The notes beneath the pieces are model-generated. The model was given only the letters and a program-made list of their open reading frames with translations. It was not told the origin of the DNA and made no database searches. This document shows, piece after piece, positions 1,688 to 45,759 of a stretch of 64,000 nucleotides of DNA (the stretch's first letter is position 1; each line of letters opens with the position of its first letter). A program made the translations under genes and the position numbers. The DNA is from a virus: positions 1 through 64,000 of the IMG/VR virus record IMGVR_UViG_3300028571_002266; one strand, written 5' to 3'.

Positions 1688-4222
1688 ATGTCTAATGAAT
1701 TTGTAGTTAAAAAAGGCTTGATTCTAAATAATCAAGCCCCAGTTAAGTTTACAGATGCGTCTGGAACAATCTATGTTGCTGTTCAAGCTCCAAGTGCTGT
1801 TAGTTCAGGCAATGTAAATATAACTCTACCCGGATCTTATGGTACAAGTGGTCAAATACTAGCAACCAATTCATCTGGAACACTTTCTTGGGTCACACCA
1901 GCATCAATAACTTCTGGTTCTGTCACTTCTGGATTTATTGGTGACGCTGCTGTAGTTAGTGGATCTGTTGGAAGTGGTCAAATAGGAGCAGTTCACTTAG
2001 CGTCTGGTACTATCCCTTCTGGTTTTGCTTTATCTTCTGGATCTGTCATCTCTGGCTATATTGGTGATGCTGCTGTAGTTAGTGGAAGCATTGCTTCTGG
2101 ACAAATTGGTGCTAACCACATTGCTTCTGGTGTAATTCCGACAAGTTTCAGCTTAACTTCAGGAATTGTTCAGAGTGGGAACATTGGTAACAATGCAGTA
2201 AACAGTGGAAATGTCAGTAGTGGAAGCATTGGTTTAGTTCATCTTGCAAGTGGAACTGTATTCTCTGGAACATTTGTTGCATCTGGAACAGTACAAAGTG
2301 GATCATTAGGTAATGCTTCTGTAGTTTCTGGTAGTATCGCTAGTGGAAGCATTGGAAGTATTCATTTGGCTTCTGGAGTTTTAGTTCCGACTTATATTTC
2401 TGGAACAGCAAATCAAATTCTTGGAATCAATGCTGGAGCAACAGCAAATGAATACAAAACACTTGCTGCTGCTGGAAATATATCAATTACAAATAATCCA
2501 AATCTGGTTACAATTGGAACAACAGGTGAAGTTCCTCTTGGATATTACATTTCAGCATATTCAGATGTGACACAAACTAATACAGGATTAGCTTCTGGCA
2601 ATTTAATGACATATAATAATGTTGCCGAAGCAAATGGAATTTCAGTTAGATCTGGATCAAATGTCGTATTTGGATACCCCGGAACTTATAATATTCAGTT
2701 TTCAGCACAACTTGATAAAACAGATTCTGGATTAGATCAAATTGATATTTGGTTAAAATTAAATGGATCAAATGTTGATAACAGTAGCACAAGACTTGAT
2801 TTGACTGGTAATGATGCTAAAGTAGTAGCAGCATGGAACTGGGTTTTATCTGTTTCTTCAGGCGATTATACAGAAATTGCTTGGTATTCAGCAGATGCAG
2901 ATTTAAGGTTGTATGCCGAAGCATTAATTAGCGGTCGTATTCACCCAGCCATCCCATCTGTTATCATGACAGCTGTTCAGGTCATGAACACAAGTGCTTA
3001 TGGAACAGTGACTAATGTTGATTTAAGTTTACCTAATCAATTTGTTGTAAGTGGTAATCCAGTAGTTTCTTCTGGAACATTAAGTGCTGCATGGGCATAT
3101 CAACCACAAAATACATTCCTAGCTGCTCCTGCAAATACTAGTGGAACTCCAAGTTTCAGAGTTATTTCTTCTGGTGATCTTATTTCTGGACAAGTAATGT
3201 CTGGAAGCATTAGTAGCGGACAAATTGGAAGTATTCATTTAGCTTCTGGAGTTGTTGTTGGCTTTTTGACTTCTGGAATTATAACTTCTGGAATGATTGG
3301 CTCAGGGGTAGTTTTCAACAATAATATTGCATCTGGTGGAGTTGTTAGTGGAAAACTTGCTGACGGTTCTGTTGTTTCTGGAAGCATAGCTTCTGGTCAA
3401 ATTGGTGTTAGTCATTTAATTTCTGGATTAATTACAACATTAACATTAGGAAGTGGTCAGGTAACTAGTGGAAACATTGCTAGTGGAGTTGCATTTAGAT
3501 TACTTTCTGGAAGTATTACTTCTGGATTTATTGGTGATAATGCTGTTGTTTCTGGAAGCATAGCATCTGGACAGATTGGACAATTCCATCATGCTTCTGG
3601 ATCGGTAACAAGTGGAAGCATTGGTAATGCTGCTGTAGTAAGCGGAAGTATAGCATCTGGGCAAATTGGTGTTAATCACTTAATTTCTGGATTAATCACA
3701 ACATTGTCCCTTGGTTCTGGTCAGGTAACCAGCGGAAATATTGCTAGTGGAGTTGTGTTTAGATTGCTTTCTGGAAGTATTACTTCTGGATTTGTTGGTG
3801 ATAATGCTGTAAACAGTGGAAATATTAGTTCTGGACAGATATTTACATTACATATTGCTTCAGGTGGATTACTTTCGGGAGCAATTGGTAGTGGTCAAAT
3901 TGGTTCTTTTCATTTAGCTTCTGGTGCAGTCACTTCTGGAGACATAGGTAACGCTGCTGTAGTTAGTGGAAGTATCGGATCTGGTCAGATTGGACAATTT
4001 CACTTAGCTTCTGGTGTAGGTGGTGGTGGAGCTAGTCTTACTTCAGGTTCTGTTACATCTGGATATATTGGAAATGCTGCTGTAGTAAGTGGAAGTATTG
4101 GTAGTGGACAAATTTCTTATCCGCATATAGCAGTTGCATCTGGATTTATAGCTGGTCAAATGTTGGCTATAAGTTATTCTGGAACTCTATATTTTAGTAA
4201 TATAGATGGAGGGACTTTCTAA
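1688..4222 (+). CDS. Long Ser-Gly-repeat fibre protein with internal C1q/TNF-like domain
   Basis: An 844-residue fibre. Residues about 75-230 and 490-820 consist of SG-spaced repeats with the consensus SGxIGxxAVxSGSIxSGQIGxxHLASG, in steps of about 10-11 residues. Between them, about residues 280-430, lies a non-repetitive beta-rich domain with a YPGTYNIQFSAQL strand, WLKLNGSNV and AWYSADADLRL; this looks like a C1q/TNF jelly roll as found in phage receptor-binding fibres. The N-terminus (MSNEFVVKKGLILNNQ) resembles fibre attachment segments. The repeats probably form a trimeric beta shaft (inferred). A GAAAAGGAAATAAA leader and a CTAAATA element precede the ATG. Confidence 0.8.
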   Translation: MSNEFVVKKGLILNNQAPVKFTDASGTIYVAVQAPSAVSSGNVNITLPGSYGTSGQILATNSSGTLSWVTPASITSGSVTSGFIGDAAVVSGSVGSGQIGAVHLASGTIPSGFALSSGSVISGYIGDAAVVSGSIASGQIGANHIASGVIPTSFSLTSGIVQSGNIGNNAVNSGNVSSGSIGLVHLASGTVFSGTFVASGTVQSGSLGNASVVSGSIASGSIGSIHLASGVLVPTYISGTANQILGINAGATANEYKTLAAAGNISITNNPNLVTIGTTGEVPLGYYISAYSDVTQTNTGLASGNLMTYNNVAEANGISVRSGSNVVFGYPGTYNIQFSAQLDKTDSGLDQIDIWLKLNGSNVDNSSTRLDLTGNDAKVVAAWNWVLSVSSGDYTEIAWYSADADLRLYAEALISGRIHPAIPSVIMTAVQVMNTSAYGTVTNVDLSLPNQFVVSGNPVVSSGTLSAAWAYQPQNTFLAAPANTSGTPSFRVISSGDLISGQVMSGSISSGQIGSIHLASGVVVGFLTSGIITSGMIGSGVVFNNNIASGGVVSGKLADGSVVSGSIASGQIGVSHLISGLITTLTLGSGQVTSGNIASGVAFRLLSGSITSGFIGDNAVVSGSIASGQIGQFHHASGSVTSGSIGNAAVVSGSIASGQIGVNHLISGLITTLSLGSGQVTSGNIASGVVFRLLSGSITSGFVGDNAVNSGNISSGQIFTLHIASGGLLSGAIGSGQIGSFHLASGAVTSGDIGNAAVVSGSIGSGQIGQFHLASGVGGGGASLTSGSVTSGYIGNAAVVSGSIGSGQISYPHIAVASGFIAGQMLAISYSGTLYFSNIDGGTF

Positions 4223-38958: not shown

Positions 38959-39891
38959 ATGCGTCATTTCCTGTCTATTTCCGACTTCACTAAAGATCAA
39001 ATTGAAACTGTTTTAGAAATTGCGACAGACATTGAAAAGAATTGGGAATTTTGTCGCCAAATGAACAACAAATGTATTTCTTCGTTTTTTGCAGAACCTT
39101 CTACTAGAACCAGATTTTCATTCGAGAGAGCAATGCATTGGCTTGGAGGAAGATGTGTCACAGCTGCTGATGCATCTTCAAGTAGCAGTTTAATCAAAGG
39201 CGAAAGTCTCAAGGACACATTTCGCACTCTTGGTCAGTATTCTGACGCTATCATTATGCGTCATGGTGATTCAAGCTGGCCAGAAATAGCAAGAGCATAT
39301 TCTCGTGTTCCAGTAATTAATGCAGGAAGTGGATCTGGAGAACATCCAACACAAGCACTTCTTGACCTTCATACAATTAAACAAAAATGGAAAGATGTCA
39401 GTAATCTCAAGGTTATGTTGTGTGGAGATCTTAAAAACGGAAGAACAATACACAGTCTTATTGAACTTCTTCACATTTATGGTTGCAAAATATATTATTG
39501 CGCTGCCACTGATCATGCAGATTGTGATTTGAGCATACCTGAAAAATACCTTGCAAATATTCCTTGTAAAAATGTTGAAATATGTGACGCAAATGACATT
39601 CTTCCAGAAATCGATGTCATTTATATGACCAGAATCCAAAAAGAAAGATTCAAAGGTGTCAGTGGTTCTCTAGATTTCTTTAAGATTGACAAAACCAATA
39701 TCAATAAAATCAAAGAAAACGCTGCTATTCTTCATCCTCTTCCTAGAAACGAAGAAATTAGTGAAGATATAGATGATGATTCTCGTGCTGACTATCACGA
39801 AAGACAAGTCAGAAATGGTCTTTATATAAGAACTGCTCTTTTAGATTATATTCTTTACACAAGTCCTTTACACAGATACTACAGATCATAA
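38959..39891 (+). CDS. pyrB: Aspartate carbamoyltransferase (catalytic chain)
   Basis: 310 residues, full length for PyrB. It condenses carbamoyl phosphate with L-aspartate to N-carbamoylaspartate, the committed step of pyrimidine synthesis. Visible active-site motifs: FFAEPSTRTRFSFE (STRTR carbamoyl phosphate loop), SSLIKGESLKDT with the catalytic Lys, IIMRHGD, SGEHPTQALLDLHT (HPTQ), YMTRIQKERF (aspartate-binding Arg and Gln) and LHPLPRNEE (HPLPR). These separate it from ornithine carbamoyltransferase. No regulatory PyrI gene is adjacent. A sigma70 promoter lies just upstream. A phage metabolic gene that would raise UMP/dNTP supply. Confidence 0.93.
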   Translation: MRHFLSISDFTKDQIETVLEIATDIEKNWEFCRQMNNKCISSFFAEPSTRTRFSFERAMHWLGGRCVTAADASSSSSLIKGESLKDTFRTLGQYSDAIIMRHGDSSWPEIARAYSRVPVINAGSGSGEHPTQALLDLHTIKQKWKDVSNLKVMLCGDLKNGRTIHSLIELLHIYGCKIYYCAATDHADCDLSIPEKYLANIPCKNVEICDANDILPEIDVIYMTRIQKERFKGVSGSLDFFKIDKTNINKIKENAAILHPLPRNEEISEDIDDDSRADYHERQVRNGLYIRTALLDYILYTSPLHRYYRS

Positions 39892-39903: not shown

Positions 39904-40623
39904 TTAATTGTTTTCTAAAGGGAATAACTGACGGAATTTTTGCTCAACATCTTTGTTGATGCATGGCAAATAAACTTTGATGTCGAAATTAATTTTTTTA
40001 TAATCATCTTCAGTGAAGATTGATTTCATGAATGGTGAAATAGCAATGTAATATGGAGATATTTTAGCAAGGTTTATCCAACGGAAAATATTATTGTTGA
40101 TATAACATTCTCGATATTTTTCAATTGTCAGTTCGGAACCGAATGTTTTAACTAAAAATTCTTTTGTCTTTTCAATTCCATCAATTGCTTTTTGGAATCC
40201 GATTCCACTTGCAACAGATTCTGCTGGTTTATTTTTGACTGAATCGTATCTTTTCTTCCAAAGCTTCCATCTTTTCCAAGCTTTTTCACCAACTAGACAA
40301 TTTGGGTCAATAAGAGGATGATCTTTGCCAGAATTGATATATTTGAGAACTTCTAACTGAGCACGGATATAAAGTGGATATTCATTATTCTCAAGAATTC
40401 CCTGAGTTTCTCTTGCAAGCTTATATGCTATTTTGAATATAAGAGACTTTCTAGGGTCACCCTTTCTCATTGTTGAGTGACGATAATCAGGAAATGTTTT
40501 TCTGCTTTGTTCAAGCCACATTGCAGAAAGATTGCAAGCTTTTGCCTCAAGATCGTCCATATTGTACTTTTCAACTGCATCTAAAAGCCACATGTAGTCA
40601 TCCTCTTTTTTTTCAGACTTCAT
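39904..40623 (-). CDS. Unknown helical phage protein
   Basis: The start was placed at the ATG 4 bases after AAGGAG (239 residues); a frame nine codons longer lacks a site. Mostly helical and basic: LEAKACNLSAMWLEQSRKTFPDYRHSTMRKGDPRKSLIFKIAYKLARETQG, GEKAWKRWKLWKKRYDSV. It shares a short divergent region with the next gene. Small basic proteins of this size near replication genes can be helicase loaders, but no specific similarity is claimed. Confidence 0.6.
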   Translation of the reverse strand: MKSEKKEDDYMWLLDAVEKYNMDDLEAKACNLSAMWLEQSRKTFPDYRHSTMRKGDPRKSLIFKIAYKLARETQGILENNEYPLYIRAQLEVLKYINSGKDHPLIDPNCLVGEKAWKRWKLWKKRYDSVKNKPAESVASGIGFQKAIDGIEKTKEFLVKTFGSELTIEKYRECYINNNIFRWINLAKISPYYIAISPFMKSIFTEDDYKKINFDIKVYLPCINKDVEQKFRQLFPLENN

Positions 40624-40662
40624 GATACTCCTTTGAATTTGTGAAAGCAAGGTATGTATTAA

Positions 40663-41550
40663 ATGAAAATAGCATTTTGCCCATTAGTTAGTCGTGATAT
40701 GGACAAGGCAATTCGTGCCACAAATTCTTGTCGTAATCAATTTCCAACCGAATCCATTGAAATAGAAACAGTTGCAATTATCAATTCTCAGAATCAAGAA
40801 TTTGTTTCTCAGTTTTCAGAATGGTGTGAAAAAGAGAATGTCAAATATAAAATTACTCAGTCAAATGGTACTCCGAGTAAGGGAAAAAATTCTGTATTAA
40901 ATTTTTTACAAAACTCAAATTATGATGGTCTGAGTCTTACTGATGGAGACGACCTATTTTACCCAACAGGTGCAATTCAAATTGAAAAACATATGAAACA
41001 TCACCCCGGAACTGATGTTTTGATTGTTAAACCTGCCGATCATGTTTCAAATGAAAAAACAAATACTTCTAAGGAAGTTGGAGAAAATAAATATGCAGTA
41101 TGCTGGGGTATGAATGTTGTTAATCTTGGATATAAATATGGACCCGGAAAGCACGATATATTTACATCTGGACACAAAGCAGCAAGAAATTTAGGTGGAC
41201 ATGTCTTTTATAGCAAAAAATTAAGCAATATGATAAGATATGACGAAGAACAGGTTTTAGGAGAAGATTTACTTCTTGAATTTAATCTTCTTAAACTTCA
41301 TCAACAAAATAAAATATCATTTTGGTTAAGTTTTGCTAGTGATGTTCAGATGTTAGACAGAACAAAGCAAGAAAGCATACAAAATCTTAAGAATGAAAGT
41401 TTAGGTAAAATTTGTTTTGAAAGATTGATTAAAAAAGTAAAAGAAATATTACCTGAAGATAGAAGTTCATTTAATGAATTGCCAGTAGAGTTTCCCGAAA
41501 TTATTTTTAATCATGATCGAAAAATTGAATGGTTGAAACAAGTCTTTTGA
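40663..41550 (+). CDS. GT-A-like glycosyltransferase
   Basis: 295 residues. MKIAFCPLVSRDMDKAIRATNSCRNQF starts the Rossmann-like GT-A core, and YDGLSLTDGDDLFYPTGAIQIEKHM holds the DGDD metal/sugar motif. VYSKKLSNMIRYDEEQVLGEDLLLEFNLL supplies a later acidic segment. Lacks other recognised modules. Its stop codon lies inside the -35 box of the promoter for the structured RNA region downstream. Confidence 0.65.
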   Translation: MKIAFCPLVSRDMDKAIRATNSCRNQFPTESIEIETVAIINSQNQEFVSQFSEWCEKENVKYKITQSNGTPSKGKNSVLNFLQNSNYDGLSLTDGDDLFYPTGAIQIEKHMKHHPGTDVLIVKPADHVSNEKTNTSKEVGENKYAVCWGMNVVNLGYKYGPGKHDIFTSGHKAARNLGGHVFYSKKLSNMIRYDEEQVLGEDLLLEFNLLKLHQQNKISFWLSFASDVQMLDRTKQESIQNLKNESLGKICFERLIKKVKEILPEDRSSFNELPVEFPEIIFNHDRKIEWLKQVF

Positions 41551-41574
41551 CATTCCCATAAAAGATGGTATAAT
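41547..41574 (+). promoter_or_regulatory. Consensus extended -10 sigma70 promoter
   Basis: Perfect TTGACA at 41547-41552, 16-base spacer, perfect TATAAT at 41569-41574 preceded by TGG (extended -10). The predicted start is near 41581. It is the best promoter in the window and faces the non-coding region. Confidence 0.85.
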
Positions 41575-41580
41575 AGATAT

Positions 41581-42147
41581 GGCAGTCCCAAGCTTTGGCG
41601 TGAAAGGTCTCGTACTACCTTGAATGTTGAAGTTGCTAAACCTGTGAGGCTCTCACCAAGAGCGGGTCTTTGTAGTTGTTTCTACAACAAATGCTGTAAC
41701 GGGCAGCATTGTTCTCACAAGCAACATAGGTCAAGCCAGATAGCATCGATGCTGACTTCTATGACTATAGTGTATCCCACTAGCAAACACTCATGTCATA
41801 GACTATCTGGTTTTAAGATTGTTGCAAAAGAAAGTACGCTACTCTTCATCACCACTAATCTTTTTGCTGGAGTAAGTAAGATTAAAGAACAAAAACAAAG
41901 CTTAAACGCTAAATTTTTGCTCTACTAATCTTGTTTACTCAATAAGTCATTATTCTTAATGATTTATACAGTAATAACCATTAGGGTCAGCATCCCGTTC
42001 TGGAATTTGATTGTAAATAAAAGTTTCTCAAAAATATTTTCATGTTGTTAATGAAGAATTTGTTTAGTATGACATTTGTAAATCCGTTCATCAATGAATG
42101 AAGGGATAAGGCTAGAAGGCTCAAAATTGACTTAGGAGTGATTATCT
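41581..42147 (+). ncRNA. Large structured non-coding RNA (or 567-nt polA leader)
   Basis: The only gap over 300 bases. From the predicted start it shows many helices: AAGGT/ACCTT (41604/41617), GTGAG/CTCAC (41644/41652) competing with GCTCT/AGAGC (41649/41659), TTGTAG/CTACAA (41670/41682), AATGCTG/CAGCATT (41690/41704), and a large arm of CCAGATAG/CTATCTGG (41736/41803) stacked on TCTATGAC/GTCATAGA (41758/41795), enclosing TAGTG/CACTA (41768/41778). Further on are a 15-pair helix GAGTAAGTAAGATTA/TAATCTTGTTTACTC (41870/41926) with tandem G-U pairs, and an 11-pair hairpin with one G-U (41942/41957). Past 42003 little structure is seen. The 3' end is unknown. Confidence 0.65.
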
Positions 42148-43482
42148 ATGAACTTTGAGTCTCTGGCCAAGTTGCTTACAGAAATCGACCACAAGACCCT
42201 ATTCTTGCGATTTAATCCTGAGGTTCTTGATTTCACAGACAAGGAATCGTCTTGTGAGCTTCAGTTCTTTATTCCTGATGGTCGAATCTTCAAGATTGAG
42301 TTGAAAGATGAGACTATGCCTTTGATTCTAAGCTTCTTGGGTATATCTTTGTTTGAAAAAGATTGCAAAATATTTACTTGGAATTGGAAGTGTTTTGCTT
42401 CTTATGTTTTTGCTAAGAAGAACAAGTTTTATGACATAAAGGCTTCTATTGTTGATATCAAGATAATTGAGTCATTTAGCGGTATAAAGAAGAATGCTCC
42501 TGAAAGTTATGTTGAGGCTTTCAATAGAATAAAGAATTTAGTTTCTTCTGGTTTGTGGAAGGAAAGTGAGAATATTTACAAGAACATTCATCTTCCTTTG
42601 ATGACAACAGTTATACCAGCATTGGAGAAGATAGGTATTGTTGATTCTTCTTTGCATTCTAAGGTTCATGCTTATTACGAGATTGATGGGCAGGACAATG
42701 GTCGATTGAAGTGTTTCGGTGCCTTCAAGAATTCTTATGTTCCTCACACAATGGGATCTGAACTGAAAGAAGTTTTGAGGCCTGTTGGTTACGATAATTT
42801 TTTTATGAGTTTTGACTTTAAGGGGATGGAAGTATTTGTTTTGGCGCATTTGAGTAAGGATCGAAATTTATTGAGACTTTGCGATCAGGAAGACATATAT
42901 CTTTCCTTGTATAGGGTTTTAATTGGACAGGAGAAGGAAAAAAATGATAGGGAATTGGCAAAAAAATGTTTTTTGCCGGTTATATATGGACAGTCAGCCC
43001 GATCACTTTCTTTGAGATGTGGTTTGGCGGCTGATGTGGCCGAAAAAGTGGTGGAACGAATTAGTTCTTTGTTTCCTGCTGCTATTTCATTTGTTGCCGA
43101 TTGCGAAAGCAAAGTTAAAAAAGATGGATATGCAAAGGATTTCTTCGGTAAGAGAAGAACAAACTTTGAGGTTGGGAAGGAATACCTTGCCAGAAATTTT
43201 GCAGTGCAGTCTCCTGCTGCGACGATATGCCTAGAGAAACTTATCAGTTTATATTTTTGTTTGCAAAAACTCAATGAGTCATTGAAAGATAAAGCTGAAA
43301 TTGCTTATACTGTTCATGACGGATATGTTGTTTATGCCACAAAGGAAAACTGGAAGCAAGTTTACAAAAAATGTATGGATGCTTTGACTAGTGAATCTGA
43401 GTTGTGTCCCGGCCTTAAGCTGAAAGTTTCATGCAAAGGAGGACGCAATCTAAATGATCTAAAGGTTATAAAAAACGGCTAG
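42148..43482 (+). CDS. polA: Family A DNA polymerase without exonuclease domain
   Basis: 444 residues, so only the polymerase part of the PolA family is clear. Motif A is FMSFDFKGMEVFVLAHLSKD with catalytic Asp223. Motif B is RELAKKCFLPVIYGQS (residues 268-283), with the O-helix Arg, Lys and Tyr-Gly. Motif C is YTVHDGYVVYA with Asp391, where the usual HDE is HDG. The residue aligned with E. coli Phe762 is Leu276. No 3'-5' exonuclease motifs are visible in the first 200 residues; a separate DnaQ-like protein lies at 29827. The start has GGAG upstream. Extends DNA in replication with the DnaB helicase nearby. Confidence 0.88.
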   Translation: MNFESLAKLLTEIDHKTLFLRFNPEVLDFTDKESSCELQFFIPDGRIFKIELKDETMPLILSFLGISLFEKDCKIFTWNWKCFASYVFAKKNKFYDIKASIVDIKIIESFSGIKKNAPESYVEAFNRIKNLVSSGLWKESENIYKNIHLPLMTTVIPALEKIGIVDSSLHSKVHAYYEIDGQDNGRLKCFGAFKNSYVPHTMGSELKEVLRPVGYDNFFMSFDFKGMEVFVLAHLSKDRNLLRLCDQEDIYLSLYRVLIGQEKEKNDRELAKKCFLPVIYGQSARSLSLRCGLAADVAEKVVERISSLFPAAISFVADCESKVKKDGYAKDFFGKRRTNFEVGKEYLARNFAVQSPAATICLEKLISLYFCLQKLNESLKDKAEIAYTVHDGYVVYATKENWKQVYKKCMDALTSESELCPGLKLKVSCKGGRNLNDLKVIKNG

Positions 43483-43493
43483 AGGATTAAGAA

Positions 43494-44045
43494 ATGCTTG
43501 ATATTGTACACAATTTCCCCATTACTGAAGCTGAATTTTTTGATTTGGATAAGAAGTTTTCAAAGCTTTGCTGGCATGCTGCTCATGAATTGAAGAAAAA
43601 GAATACAAACAATAATTTTCTTGATGATGCAGAAGACATCAAACAAGAATTACAAATGAGTATGCTTCGTGCTGGAAGTTATTATAAGCGTCAGGTTTAT
43701 ATCGAGAAATGCTTTGAAATTGCCAAGAATTATGTGAGTGATCAATTCATCATGAAGGTTCTTAAAGAGCTTGAGAATCTTTGGAGCAATAGAACCAGAC
43801 ATGGTGCAAATAGGCAGAAGTATGGTCATTTCCAAGAAAAGATACTTGACAGAATAATTAACAAGTTTGTGCCTAAAGAACATAGGCCTAAGAAGGATGC
43901 TCCTTTGAAGATTGACAGTAAGTTTACAACATATTGCAAGGCAATTGTGTGGAACGGTCAGAAGAGCATGGGCAAAAAGATTACCCGTGAAAAATCGATT
44001 CGTAGCGGTATGGTTTCACTAAGCGAGTTTGATTTCTTACATTGA
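43494..44045 (+). CDS. Sigma-factor-like protein (possible gp55-type late sigma)
   Basis: 183 residues. FSKLCWHAAHELKKK, then DDAEDIKQELQMSMLRAGSYYKR, looks like sigma region 2.1-2.2 (the AEDIxQE segment that binds RNA polymerase). IDSKFTTYCKAIVWNGQKSMGKKI resembles the region 2.3-2.4 FxTYxxxxVxN helix. A ~70-residue insert separates them. No region 4 is seen, as in T4 gp55. It lies between DNA polymerase and helicase genes, and the window holds CTAAATA late-type elements. Assignment is by pattern; a divergent helical DNA-binding protein is the alternative. Confidence 0.5.
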   Translation: MLDIVHNFPITEAEFFDLDKKFSKLCWHAAHELKKKNTNNNFLDDAEDIKQELQMSMLRAGSYYKRQVYIEKCFEIAKNYVSDQFIMKVLKELENLWSNRTRHGANRQKYGHFQEKILDRIINKFVPKEHRPKKDAPLKIDSKFTTYCKAIVWNGQKSMGKKITREKSIRSGMVSLSEFDFLH

Positions 44046-44229: not shown

Positions 44230-45759
44230 ATGCGTGAACTCACACCAGAAGAACAAGCCCAACTTGAGTCAATGACTGACCCAGAGGTGGTCAAATCAAA
44301 GTTTGCATGGGACGATACTTTTCAGCGCAGACTCTTAGCAATGCTTTTAACTGATGATTACATGCTTATTCAGTCGATGGATAAAATAAAGCCAGAATAT
44401 TTCAGCAATGAATCTCATATTCTTATTTGTCGAATTCTTTTGACTTATTTTACCAAAGAAAAATTTAGACCTAAAGATTGGATCATATCTCAAGAACTTA
44501 CCAATCTTCTAAAGGATCGTGATCGCACAATTCAGTTGCATTATCAGGCCGAACTCAAAAGCATATATGACTATTACGTTCCGGGAGTTGATTCCCGTGA
44601 ATACTTGATCGACAAAGTAACATATTTCGCTAAAGTTCAAGCTGTAAAGCTTGCTTTCCATTCTAGTTTGGAAAAAATGCAAGAAGCTCCTGAGGATGAA
44701 AAGACATGGAGTTTTGTTTACGAAAAAATGCGTGAAGCAATGCTTATCGACAGGAGCTACGAACCCGGTCTTGAATACTTCATGAACATTGATGAAATGT
44801 TTCGTCGTATGGACGATGTATTTGTCGGTAAAGACAGATTCACATCAGGTTTCCCAGCAATTGATAATGCTTTAACTGGTGGTGGATTATTTGCTGGTCA
44901 GATAGCAAGTTGGATTGGTTTGCCGGGAACTGGTAAATCATTAGCCTTAGTAAAGGCGGCTGTTGAAAATGTACTCTTGGGCCATAAGGTTCTTTATATC
45001 ACGTTGGAAATGGATGAACTTGGCATTGTGCAGCGTTTTACAAGTCAGTTCGCAAAGAAGGACATCAATAATCTTCGTGACATGAAAGATGAAATCAAAG
45101 CAACTATCGAAGAATTCAAGAAGGACAAGGCAGATCCTAACCTTTTGCATGTCAAGCAGTTTCCCGGTGGTCAGATTGATGTTAACGGCATAAGAGCCTA
45201 CATGGCTCAGTTGGAGCTAAGAGGATGGAAACCTAATGTTTTAATTGTTGACTATGTTGGTGAAATGAAAGACGATCCATCAGTTAAAAAATATGAAAGT
45301 GCCTATCGTATTTTGCGTGATCTTCGTGGTTATGGAGTTGAAAAAGGTCACTGCACTTTCACATGCGTTCAGCCAAATCAAACAGCCGCAAAGCTTGAAA
45401 TTGGACAATTTATTGATGAGTCTAATATCGGCACAAGCTTTGATCAGTTCAAGCCTCTTGATGCTTTTTGGTCAATTAATCAGCAGGTTTTGGAGAAGGA
45501 TGCTGAAGTTGGAAGGGTTTTTGTCATTAAGCATAGGAATGGTAGATCAAGGTTCGCATTCAAGATTGGCTTTGATTATAAGATTGGTACTCTTGATATG
45601 TTTGAAATATCGAAGGATACATATCGTGAAAGAATGAACTTGGTTCAAGAAAAGAAAGCTGAAGAAGTTACTATGGACAATGTAGGCGATGCTCCTTCGG
45701 GTAAGAGGCAGCGCAGTAAAAAGGGATTTGTTCCAGAAGAAGACACCTACGAGGCATAA
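44230..45759 (+). CDS. dnaB: Replicative DNA helicase, DnaB/T4 gp41 type
   Basis: 509 residues. N-terminal helical domain (FQRRLLAMLLTDDYMLIQSMDKIKPEYFSN). The RecA-like motor starts near residue 213: SGFPAIDNALTGGGLFAGQIASWIGLPGTGKSLALVKAA (Walker A), VLYITLEMDE (motif H1a), PNVLIVDYVGEM (Walker B), and a later CVQPNQTAAKLE/IGTSFDQFKPLDAFWSI segment with sensor Gln. It unwinds duplex at the fork 5'-3'. Sits beside the family A polymerase and the small basic protein. The C-terminus is charged and unstructured. Confidence 0.9.
   Translation: MRELTPEEQAQLESMTDPEVVKSKFAWDDTFQRRLLAMLLTDDYMLIQSMDKIKPEYFSNESHILICRILLTYFTKEKFRPKDWIISQELTNLLKDRDRTIQLHYQAELKSIYDYYVPGVDSREYLIDKVTYFAKVQAVKLAFHSSLEKMQEAPEDEKTWSFVYEKMREAMLIDRSYEPGLEYFMNIDEMFRRMDDVFVGKDRFTSGFPAIDNALTGGGLFAGQIASWIGLPGTGKSLALVKAAVENVLLGHKVLYITLEMDELGIVQRFTSQFAKKDINNLRDMKDEIKATIEEFKKDKADPNLLHVKQFPGGQIDVNGIRAYMAQLELRGWKPNVLIVDYVGEMKDDPSVKKYESAYRILRDLRGYGVEKGHCTFTCVQPNQTAAKLEIGQFIDESNIGTSFDQFKPLDAFWSINQQVLEKDAEVGRVFVIKHRNGRSRFAFKIGFDYKIGTLDMFEISKDTYRERMNLVQEKKAEEVTMDNVGDAPSGKRQRSKKGFVPEEDTYEA

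Follow-up and report, generated by a model that had tools for sequence, protein, structure and literature searches.

A predicted large structured RNA with a double-pseudoknot core upstream of family-A DNA polymerase genes in uncultured phages

The window analysed here, a stretch of 64,000 nucleotides, is part of a 168,478-base IMG/VR virus record. Around the locus of interest, its gene order is a carbamoyltransferase gene, a gene for a 248-aa protein on the minus strand, a gene for a 295-aa protein, the RNA described below, a family-A DNA polymerase gene (polA), a gene for a 183-aa protein and a gene for a DnaB-like helicase. The polymerase, encoded on the plus strand at 42148 to 43482, comprises 444 residues and matches PF00476 with an E-value of 4.1e-29. 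It is followed on the same strand by the conserved 183-aa protein (43494 to 44045), which gave no match above any cut-off in the family search and has a counterpart of 185 to 191 aa at the same place in relatives, and by the DnaB-like replicative helicase (44230 to 45759; phrog_19, E 3.2e-48), for which similar reading frames occur in the same order in relatives. Much of the gene order is retained in the relatives, some of which lack the 295-aa gene; not every gene was seen at each locus. The best named match to the polymerase (35.8%) lies in an unannotated 595-kb record, LR756511. By eye, this record also carries a carbamoyltransferase in a like neighbourhood, and the phage-encoded aspartate/ornithine carbamoyltransferase of the window lies at 38959 to 39891 (PF02729, E 9.7e-45; PF00185, E 6e-25). 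The minus-strand protein (39904 to 40650 in the window) has no assigned family; a protein of about 225 to 255 aa is found beside the RNA and polA in several relatives and, by eye, in LR756511 too.

The gap of 597 nucleotides noticed in an earlier, sequence-only reading of this DNA is real: it separates the end of the upstream reading frame (41550) from the start of the polymerase frame (42148). The perfect promoter reported at its beginning was also recovered. This sigma-70-type promoter, on the plus strand at 41547 to 41574, consists of TTGACA (41547 to 41552), a spacing of 16 nucleotides and TATAAT (41569 to 41574), with a TG before the -10 element; its score of 12/12 was reached by none of 60 composition shuffles, and the relatives L002, L003 and L011 keep 12, 11 and 10 of the 12 positions. 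Behind it lies a conserved structured RNA of about 445 nucleotides on the plus strand, 41581 to 42025, as judged from alignment, folding energy and covariation; its start is placed from the promoter and its end from the loss of conservation, which by eye fades in the alignment at about 42025 and not at 42147. The stretch from 41581 to 42147 (567 nucleotides) folds with a minimum free energy of -160.2 kcal/mol (z -5.9), and none of 100 shuffles was equally stable. No conserved reading frame passes through the RNA in the ten loci compared, where the longest stop-free runs differ in both frame and length.

Compensatory changes in homologues are abundant, and the case for a large structured phage RNA behind the promoter is stronger than the sequence-only reading had claimed. 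Alignment A8 was built with MAFFT from nine core sequences; L057 was left out because MAFFT misplaces its insertion. When the proposed structure, pseudoknots included, was imposed on A8, 92.9% of cells were paired versus 80.2% after shuffling, 31 of 56 pairs changed on both sides versus 16.5 expected, and the covariation score was 0.445 versus 0.201, each value being reached by none of 500 shuffles. Further pair types numbered 55 versus 48.7 expected (14 of 500 shuffles), and sliding the partners by one to three columns reduced pairing to 32-40%. The RNA thus appears, from these alignments, to keep its shape while its letters change.

Several domains make up the predicted fold, all on the plus strand. 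The P3 domain (41640 to 41731) is closed by an outer helix (41640-41643 with 41728-41731) and an inner helix (41644-41648 with 41714-41718), which enclose three hairpins at 41649-41663, 41670-41687 and 41690-41710. Across 17 sequences, 90.2% of the cells of this domain were paired versus 77.4% in shuffles, with changes on both sides in 14 of its 25 pairs (0/500 shuffles); support is poorest for the middle hairpin (75% and 63% of cells). The compound arm noted earlier at 41736 to 41810, here P4, exists: its outer helix (41736-41743 with 41803-41810) covaries strongly, with 7 of 8 pairs and 99% of cells, and its inner helix (41759-41765 with 41795-41801) less so, with 4 of 7 pairs and 80% of cells. 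The 10-base palindrome GCATCGATGC of this arm, which had been thought capable of mediating RNA-RNA dimers, is indeed present in the window at 41743 to 41752; none of the seven relatives checked carries it. In the 3' domain (41870 to 41940), the long 15-pair helix (41870-41884 with 41926-41940) was likewise corroborated, with changes on both sides in 8 of its 15 pairs and 84% of cells paired among seven sequences; it encloses an inner hairpin, AGC-UUAAAC-GCU, at 41899 to 41910. The neighbouring 11-pair hairpin (41942 to 41967) exists, although it covaries weakly (2 of 11 pairs, 74% of cells). For the small terminal hairpin GGG-UCAGCAU-CCC (41984 to 41996) there is little evidence because none of its pairs changes on both sides.

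The core of the RNA is a double pseudoknot, which is absent from the sequence-only description. A short hairpin, P2 (GGU/ACC, 41606 to 41619, plus strand; one of three pairs changes on both sides), carries in its loop the segment PKa, CGUAC (41611 to 41615), which pairs about 220 nucleotides downstream with PKb, GUACG (41834 to 41838); three of these five pairs change on both sides. In the second pseudoknot, P5, the strand GCAACA (41721 to 41726) lies between the two closing helices of P3 and pairs with UGUUGC (41820 to 41825), just upstream of PKb. Five of the six P5 pairs change on both sides, with 82% of cells paired, and in A8 no P5 pair is invariant. Among 25 sequences the first helix occurs as CGUAC/GUACG, CGCAC/GUGCG, UGUAC/GUACA, GAUACC/GGUAUC, AGUAUC/GAUACU, GUACC/GGUAC, UGCGUU/AACGCA, GCGCU/AGCGC, UAUGC/GCAUA and other variants. 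When partners were swapped between sequences, the first helix fell from 5.72 to 3.79 base pairs and P5 from 5.00 to 3.23, neither difference being reached in 20,000 permutations; this test is biased towards pairing because the segments were picked by eye, and the alignment counts from A8 and unguided RNAalifold are the stricter evidence. In the swap set, P5 retains only three Watson-Crick pairs in L121, L128 and L181, as does the first helix in L171 (five with G-U). Unguided RNAalifold recovers the same long-range helices in two other subfamilies, in alignments A7 (five sequences) and A5 (seven sequences). Some core types (D and F) were read by eye.

Relatives were collected in three ways: a polymerase protein search yielded 11 loci in viral contigs, a search with a DNA pattern of the RNA core yielded 24 stretches (9 of the 22 compared were exact copies of others), and a polymerase profile search yielded 72 loci. 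In 22 of the 24 stretches found through the RNA, the polymerase starts 334-475 nucleotides downstream on the same strand. The remaining two, L040 and L086, are incomplete, but in L155 and L011, which come from the same contigs, the core precedes the polymerase. As expected of a leader, the RNA thus lies upstream of the polymerase and on its strand in all 24 stretches of this search, L155 and L011 standing in for the two incomplete ones. This count covers subfamilies A to C only; the other subfamilies, having been reached by way of the polymerase, prove no linkage. P2 and the polymerase ATG are 400 to 608 nucleotides apart, with a median of 485 (27 loci). For a survey of upstream regions, 47 of the 72 profile loci were submitted, which after removal of 5 duplicates left 42 distinct regions; the rest had been set aside as apparent copies from the same contig (not individually checked) or as cut off upstream (L198 and L199). 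At least 417 nucleotides without a reading frame of 120 aa precede polA in 36 of the 42 regions, four of which (L036, L162, L179 and L181) are limited by the edge of the locus, and in six only 58-196 nucleotides precede the polA match.

Model R1 of the RNA, at E <1e-3, matches 8 of 21 records, each time once and before polA. In relatives without the RNA, R1 finds no copy elsewhere at E <0.1 (G007 gave 0.136), a weak negative because R1 also misses G016, G018, L163, L166 and L168-L171, in all of which the core can be read by eye. The core was not readable by eye in the gaps of L156, L158, L160, L177 and L206, and in L172 the RNA is matched by R1 only. With the queries used, searches at the sensitivity of blastn gave no match to the RNA in named phages and plasmids, apart from 34 bases of a Spiroplasma phage (E 0.04) that we take as chance. 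In bacterial genomes R1 finds nothing at E up to 5; nine matches of a 19-base pattern, and weak nhmmer matches for L031 and L027 only, were likewise taken as chance. As far as these searches reach, the RNA is so far seen only just upstream of, and on the same strand as, a family-A polymerase gene in uncultured phages.

The RNA also stands outside the families listed in Rfam, a check that the sequence-only reading had proposed. With the 4227 models of Rfam 15, no gathering match was obtained in the window or in 14 homologous loci; a run by E-value on the region gave nine matches, all far below gathering scores. A group I intron was considered, as the strand order P3 5', domain, P5 5', P3 3', hairpin, P5 3' resembles the P3/P7/P8 arrangement of these introns. 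Group I introns have a conserved G-binding P7, whereas the P7-like P5 lacks an invariant pair for a guanosine site, three hairpins lie in the closed domain, and the RNA is not inside a gene; this identity was rejected on the lack of an Rfam intron match in the window and the 14 loci and on the absence of an invariant pair in P5. Among the literature matches listed, no title or opening of an abstract describes a structured RNA linked to phage polA, subscription papers lying mostly outside this scope. This RNA may already stand as a bare entry in a survey from 2023 that covered candidate structured RNAs of viruses and phages. What we consider new is the RNA family itself, with no gathering match among the Rfam models and a covarying double-pseudoknot core; on the alignment evidence, its members are structured RNAs some 445 nucleotides long.

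The large RNA probably controls, or takes part in, the copying of the phage genome. The reading that we favour, tentatively and as a real possibility, is that it serves the replication operon as a 5' leader of very large size and probably acts as an autogenous operator. A long leader for polA had been named earlier as an alternative; it fits the same-strand linkage and the missing terminator, short of proof. No terminator-like hairpin follows the core in 25 of 27 loci, so read-through into polA would be expected, and this absence together with the linkage favours a function in cis. The RNA would form the first part of the replication-operon transcript, with transcription from the promoter at 41547-41574 passing through the fold into polA. 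The conserved core, which is followed by an A/U-rich tail, would be recognised by the polymerase or by another replication protein of the operon when in excess, and the bound protein would spread over the tail towards the ribosome site, lowering translation. We also count for a leader that each of the 16 records examined holds one family-A polymerase, and that in relatives without the RNA the polA match begins 58-196 nucleotides after another gene or polA overlaps that gene.

The logic of such a leader would be that of the gene 43 and gene 32 operators of phage T4 on a far larger scale. The polymerase here belongs to family A, unlike that of T4, which belongs to family B. As described in part of PMC3014915, T4 gp43 and gp32 bind operators in the leader that are hairpins or pseudoknots, so that both systems place an RNA structure upstream of a phage replication gene, and in gene 32 a pseudoknot is followed by an A/U-rich stretch, a layout like that of the core and tail described here. 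The T4 operators, however, amount in the same account (PMC3014915) to a single hairpin of 16-18 bases or a single small pseudoknot, whereas the present RNA has about 445 nucleotides and its own promoter, and this far larger size is a point against a leader. So is the spacer between RNA and ATG, which is not conserved in the alignment and therefore shows no shared expression platform at the ribosome site. Promoter-like sites of at least 9/12 occur just before polA in 13 of 27 loci versus 6.8 expected, about twice the expectation, which would allow polA to be expressed independently of the RNA; the window itself showed no good second promoter. Finally, only 5 of 27 loci (the window, L002, L003, L154 and L162) have a promoter before the RNA that at most 3 of 60 shuffles can match, and the promoter matches at the remaining loci are mostly no better than shuffles.

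Some of these observations suit a separate, trans-acting phage RNA or part of a ribonucleoprotein, with its own promoter and a processed end, which would bind the replication machinery or host factors and owe its place beside polA to co-inheritance. The perfect promoter of the window, the elaborate conserved architecture, the unconserved spacer and the promoter-like sites that 13 of 27 loci have immediately ahead of polA would all be in keeping with it. We nevertheless regard it as rather unlikely, as none of the 24 RNA-driven stretches has the RNA away from polA, the single R1 match (E <1e-3) in each of 8 of the 21 records lies before polA, and a terminator is missing from 25 of 27 loci.

An unlikely reading, a little behind the trans-acting one, is that the locus is a replication origin at which the folded transcript primes or loads the adjacent family-A polymerase. 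The composition of the strands points in this direction. The GC3 skew of the plus strand, taken over genes of each orientation, changes from -0.250/-0.048 left of the RNA to +0.079/+0.204 right of it in the window, and the change from negative to positive in both gene orientations is also seen in G009, a longer record with the same polymerase; the sign changes at 38-42 kb in the window and 146-149 kb in G009. The minimum of the cumulative GC3 skew lies at 39.9 kb in the window (RNA at 41.6 kb) and at 147.0 kb in G009 (RNA at 148.7 kb). The top-ranking change point of G009 over 120 kb falls at 146.6-148.9 kb. Once gene orientation is regressed out, half of the ten records (G009, G005, G014, G015 and G018) have the RNA position among their top three change points, with ranks of 3/102, 2/67, 2/65, 3/97 and 3/107. 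Fisher's method gives p of about 2e-4 over ten records and 0.003 for the seven in which the pseudoknot was read, G021 left out, values that are rough since rank fractions serve as p-values. Against this, the other five records show no sharp switch at the RNA (G021 11/53, G022 8/54, G023 45/69, G003 9/130, G016 32/80), and the best change point of the window alone is at 18.6 kb. Of the relatives without the RNA, G007 switches at polA (2/100) and G019 does not (24/90); the switch in G007 means that the skew signal may belong to the polA locus. The RNA and polA locus is accordingly a plausible origin region on compositional grounds, with a signal that is not specific to the RNA.

What occupies the slot before polA in relatives without the RNA also bears on the origin reading. 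In L033, L122 and L123 a protein of about 387-394 aa lies between the minus-strand protein and the polymerase, and polA overlaps the preceding gene; this protein is homologous (31%) to the one before the L209 polymerase. These slot proteins, of about 387 to 402 aa, are encoded at 3787-4950 in L122, 3766-4950 in L123, 2784-3947 in L033 and 1522-2730 in L209. No Pfam family matches them (L033 and L209 tested); by eye, their motifs D..NSQP, FKE..FF..FFGK and TIHDS resemble those of family-A polymerases. All 50 fold matches listed for an AlphaFold model of the slot protein are family-A polymerases (best E 2.9e-3, none below 1e-3), which is only a hint because the mean pLDDT of the model is 49. Together, model and motifs suggest a second, divergent family-A-type polymerase. 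In L200, the gene before polA (2657-3937) matches the archaeo-eukaryotic primase (AEP) family PF22548 with E 9e-5, below the cut-off, and has homologues in L203 and L204. A polymerase-like (L033, L122, L123, L209) or AEP-primase-like (L200, L203, L204) protein thus occupies the slot of these relatives, in favour of the origin reading, but others carry unrelated genes there, an unassigned one in L205 and, by eye, a methylase in L207 and L208. DnaG-type primase matches in G003, which has the RNA, and in G007, G019 and W01, which lack it, count against the origin reading and weaken the idea of the RNA as a substitute for a primase; such matches also occur in G014 and G015, in which the gap was not read for the RNA.

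In an unlikely version of the origin reading, the RNA would itself be a component of the replication machinery: made at the origin, it would fold, remain at the locus and prime or recruit the adjacent, otherwise solitary family-A polymerase, a job that sister phages would give to a second polymerase-type or primase-type protein encoded in the slot. A familiar precedent is the primer RNA II of ColE1, like the present RNA a long structured transcript, which serves at an origin alongside a family-A polymerase; the plasmid collection, searched at the sensitivity of blastn, holds no match to the present RNA. Only 6 of the 32 loci carry tandem repeats in the 1 kb that precedes polA; this counts against an origin, and an origin of the iteron type was rejected on this ground. 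The clearest of these repeats lie upstream of the RNA in L164 (about 620-770 nucleotides before polA) and L181 (about 570-620 nucleotides before polA), with units of 21 and 11 nucleotides.

The likeness to GOLLD and ROOL raised by the sequence-only reading did not hold as membership. As described in part of PMC12286853, these are bacterial and phage RNAs of 659 nucleotides (one ROOL) to more than 800, often near tRNA islands, which form cages and have profiles in Rfam; in the same account they share with the present RNA a large size, phage encoding, pseudoknots (ROOL) and the lack of a known function. GOLLD, ROOL and OLE are absent from the Rfam matches to the region up to E 10, and membership of these three was rejected as no gathering match was found in the window or the 14 loci and nothing on the region came near a threshold. 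The 64-kb window holds no tRNA or tmRNA gene, the tRNA island being frequent and not absolute in GOLLD and ROOL, and the size and setting of the RNA differ. It is very improbable that the RNA is a new large "ornate" RNA self-assembling into a cage or RNA-only particle like GOLLD or ROOL, for although it is large, multiply pseudoknotted, phage-borne and behind a strong promoter, it has no Rfam gathering match, no tRNA genes in its window and a polA context, its dimer palindrome is not conserved, and it is shorter than the sizes given for GOLLD and ROOL in that part of PMC12286853. The interpretation given by the sequence-only reading is, overall, partly supported.

The function of the RNA may prove to be a variant of the known idea of an autogenous leader. 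Either as leader or as origin RNA, it is compact enough to be a good target for reporter tests, structure probing and cryo-EM. A true leader of this size would rank among the largest known controls of a viral polymerase; a true origin RNA would add an RNA component to phage replication. As to the polymerase itself, residues 1 to about 160 resemble, by eye, a degenerate 3'-5' exonuclease domain, and the window polymerase is possibly an exonuclease-dead enzyme.
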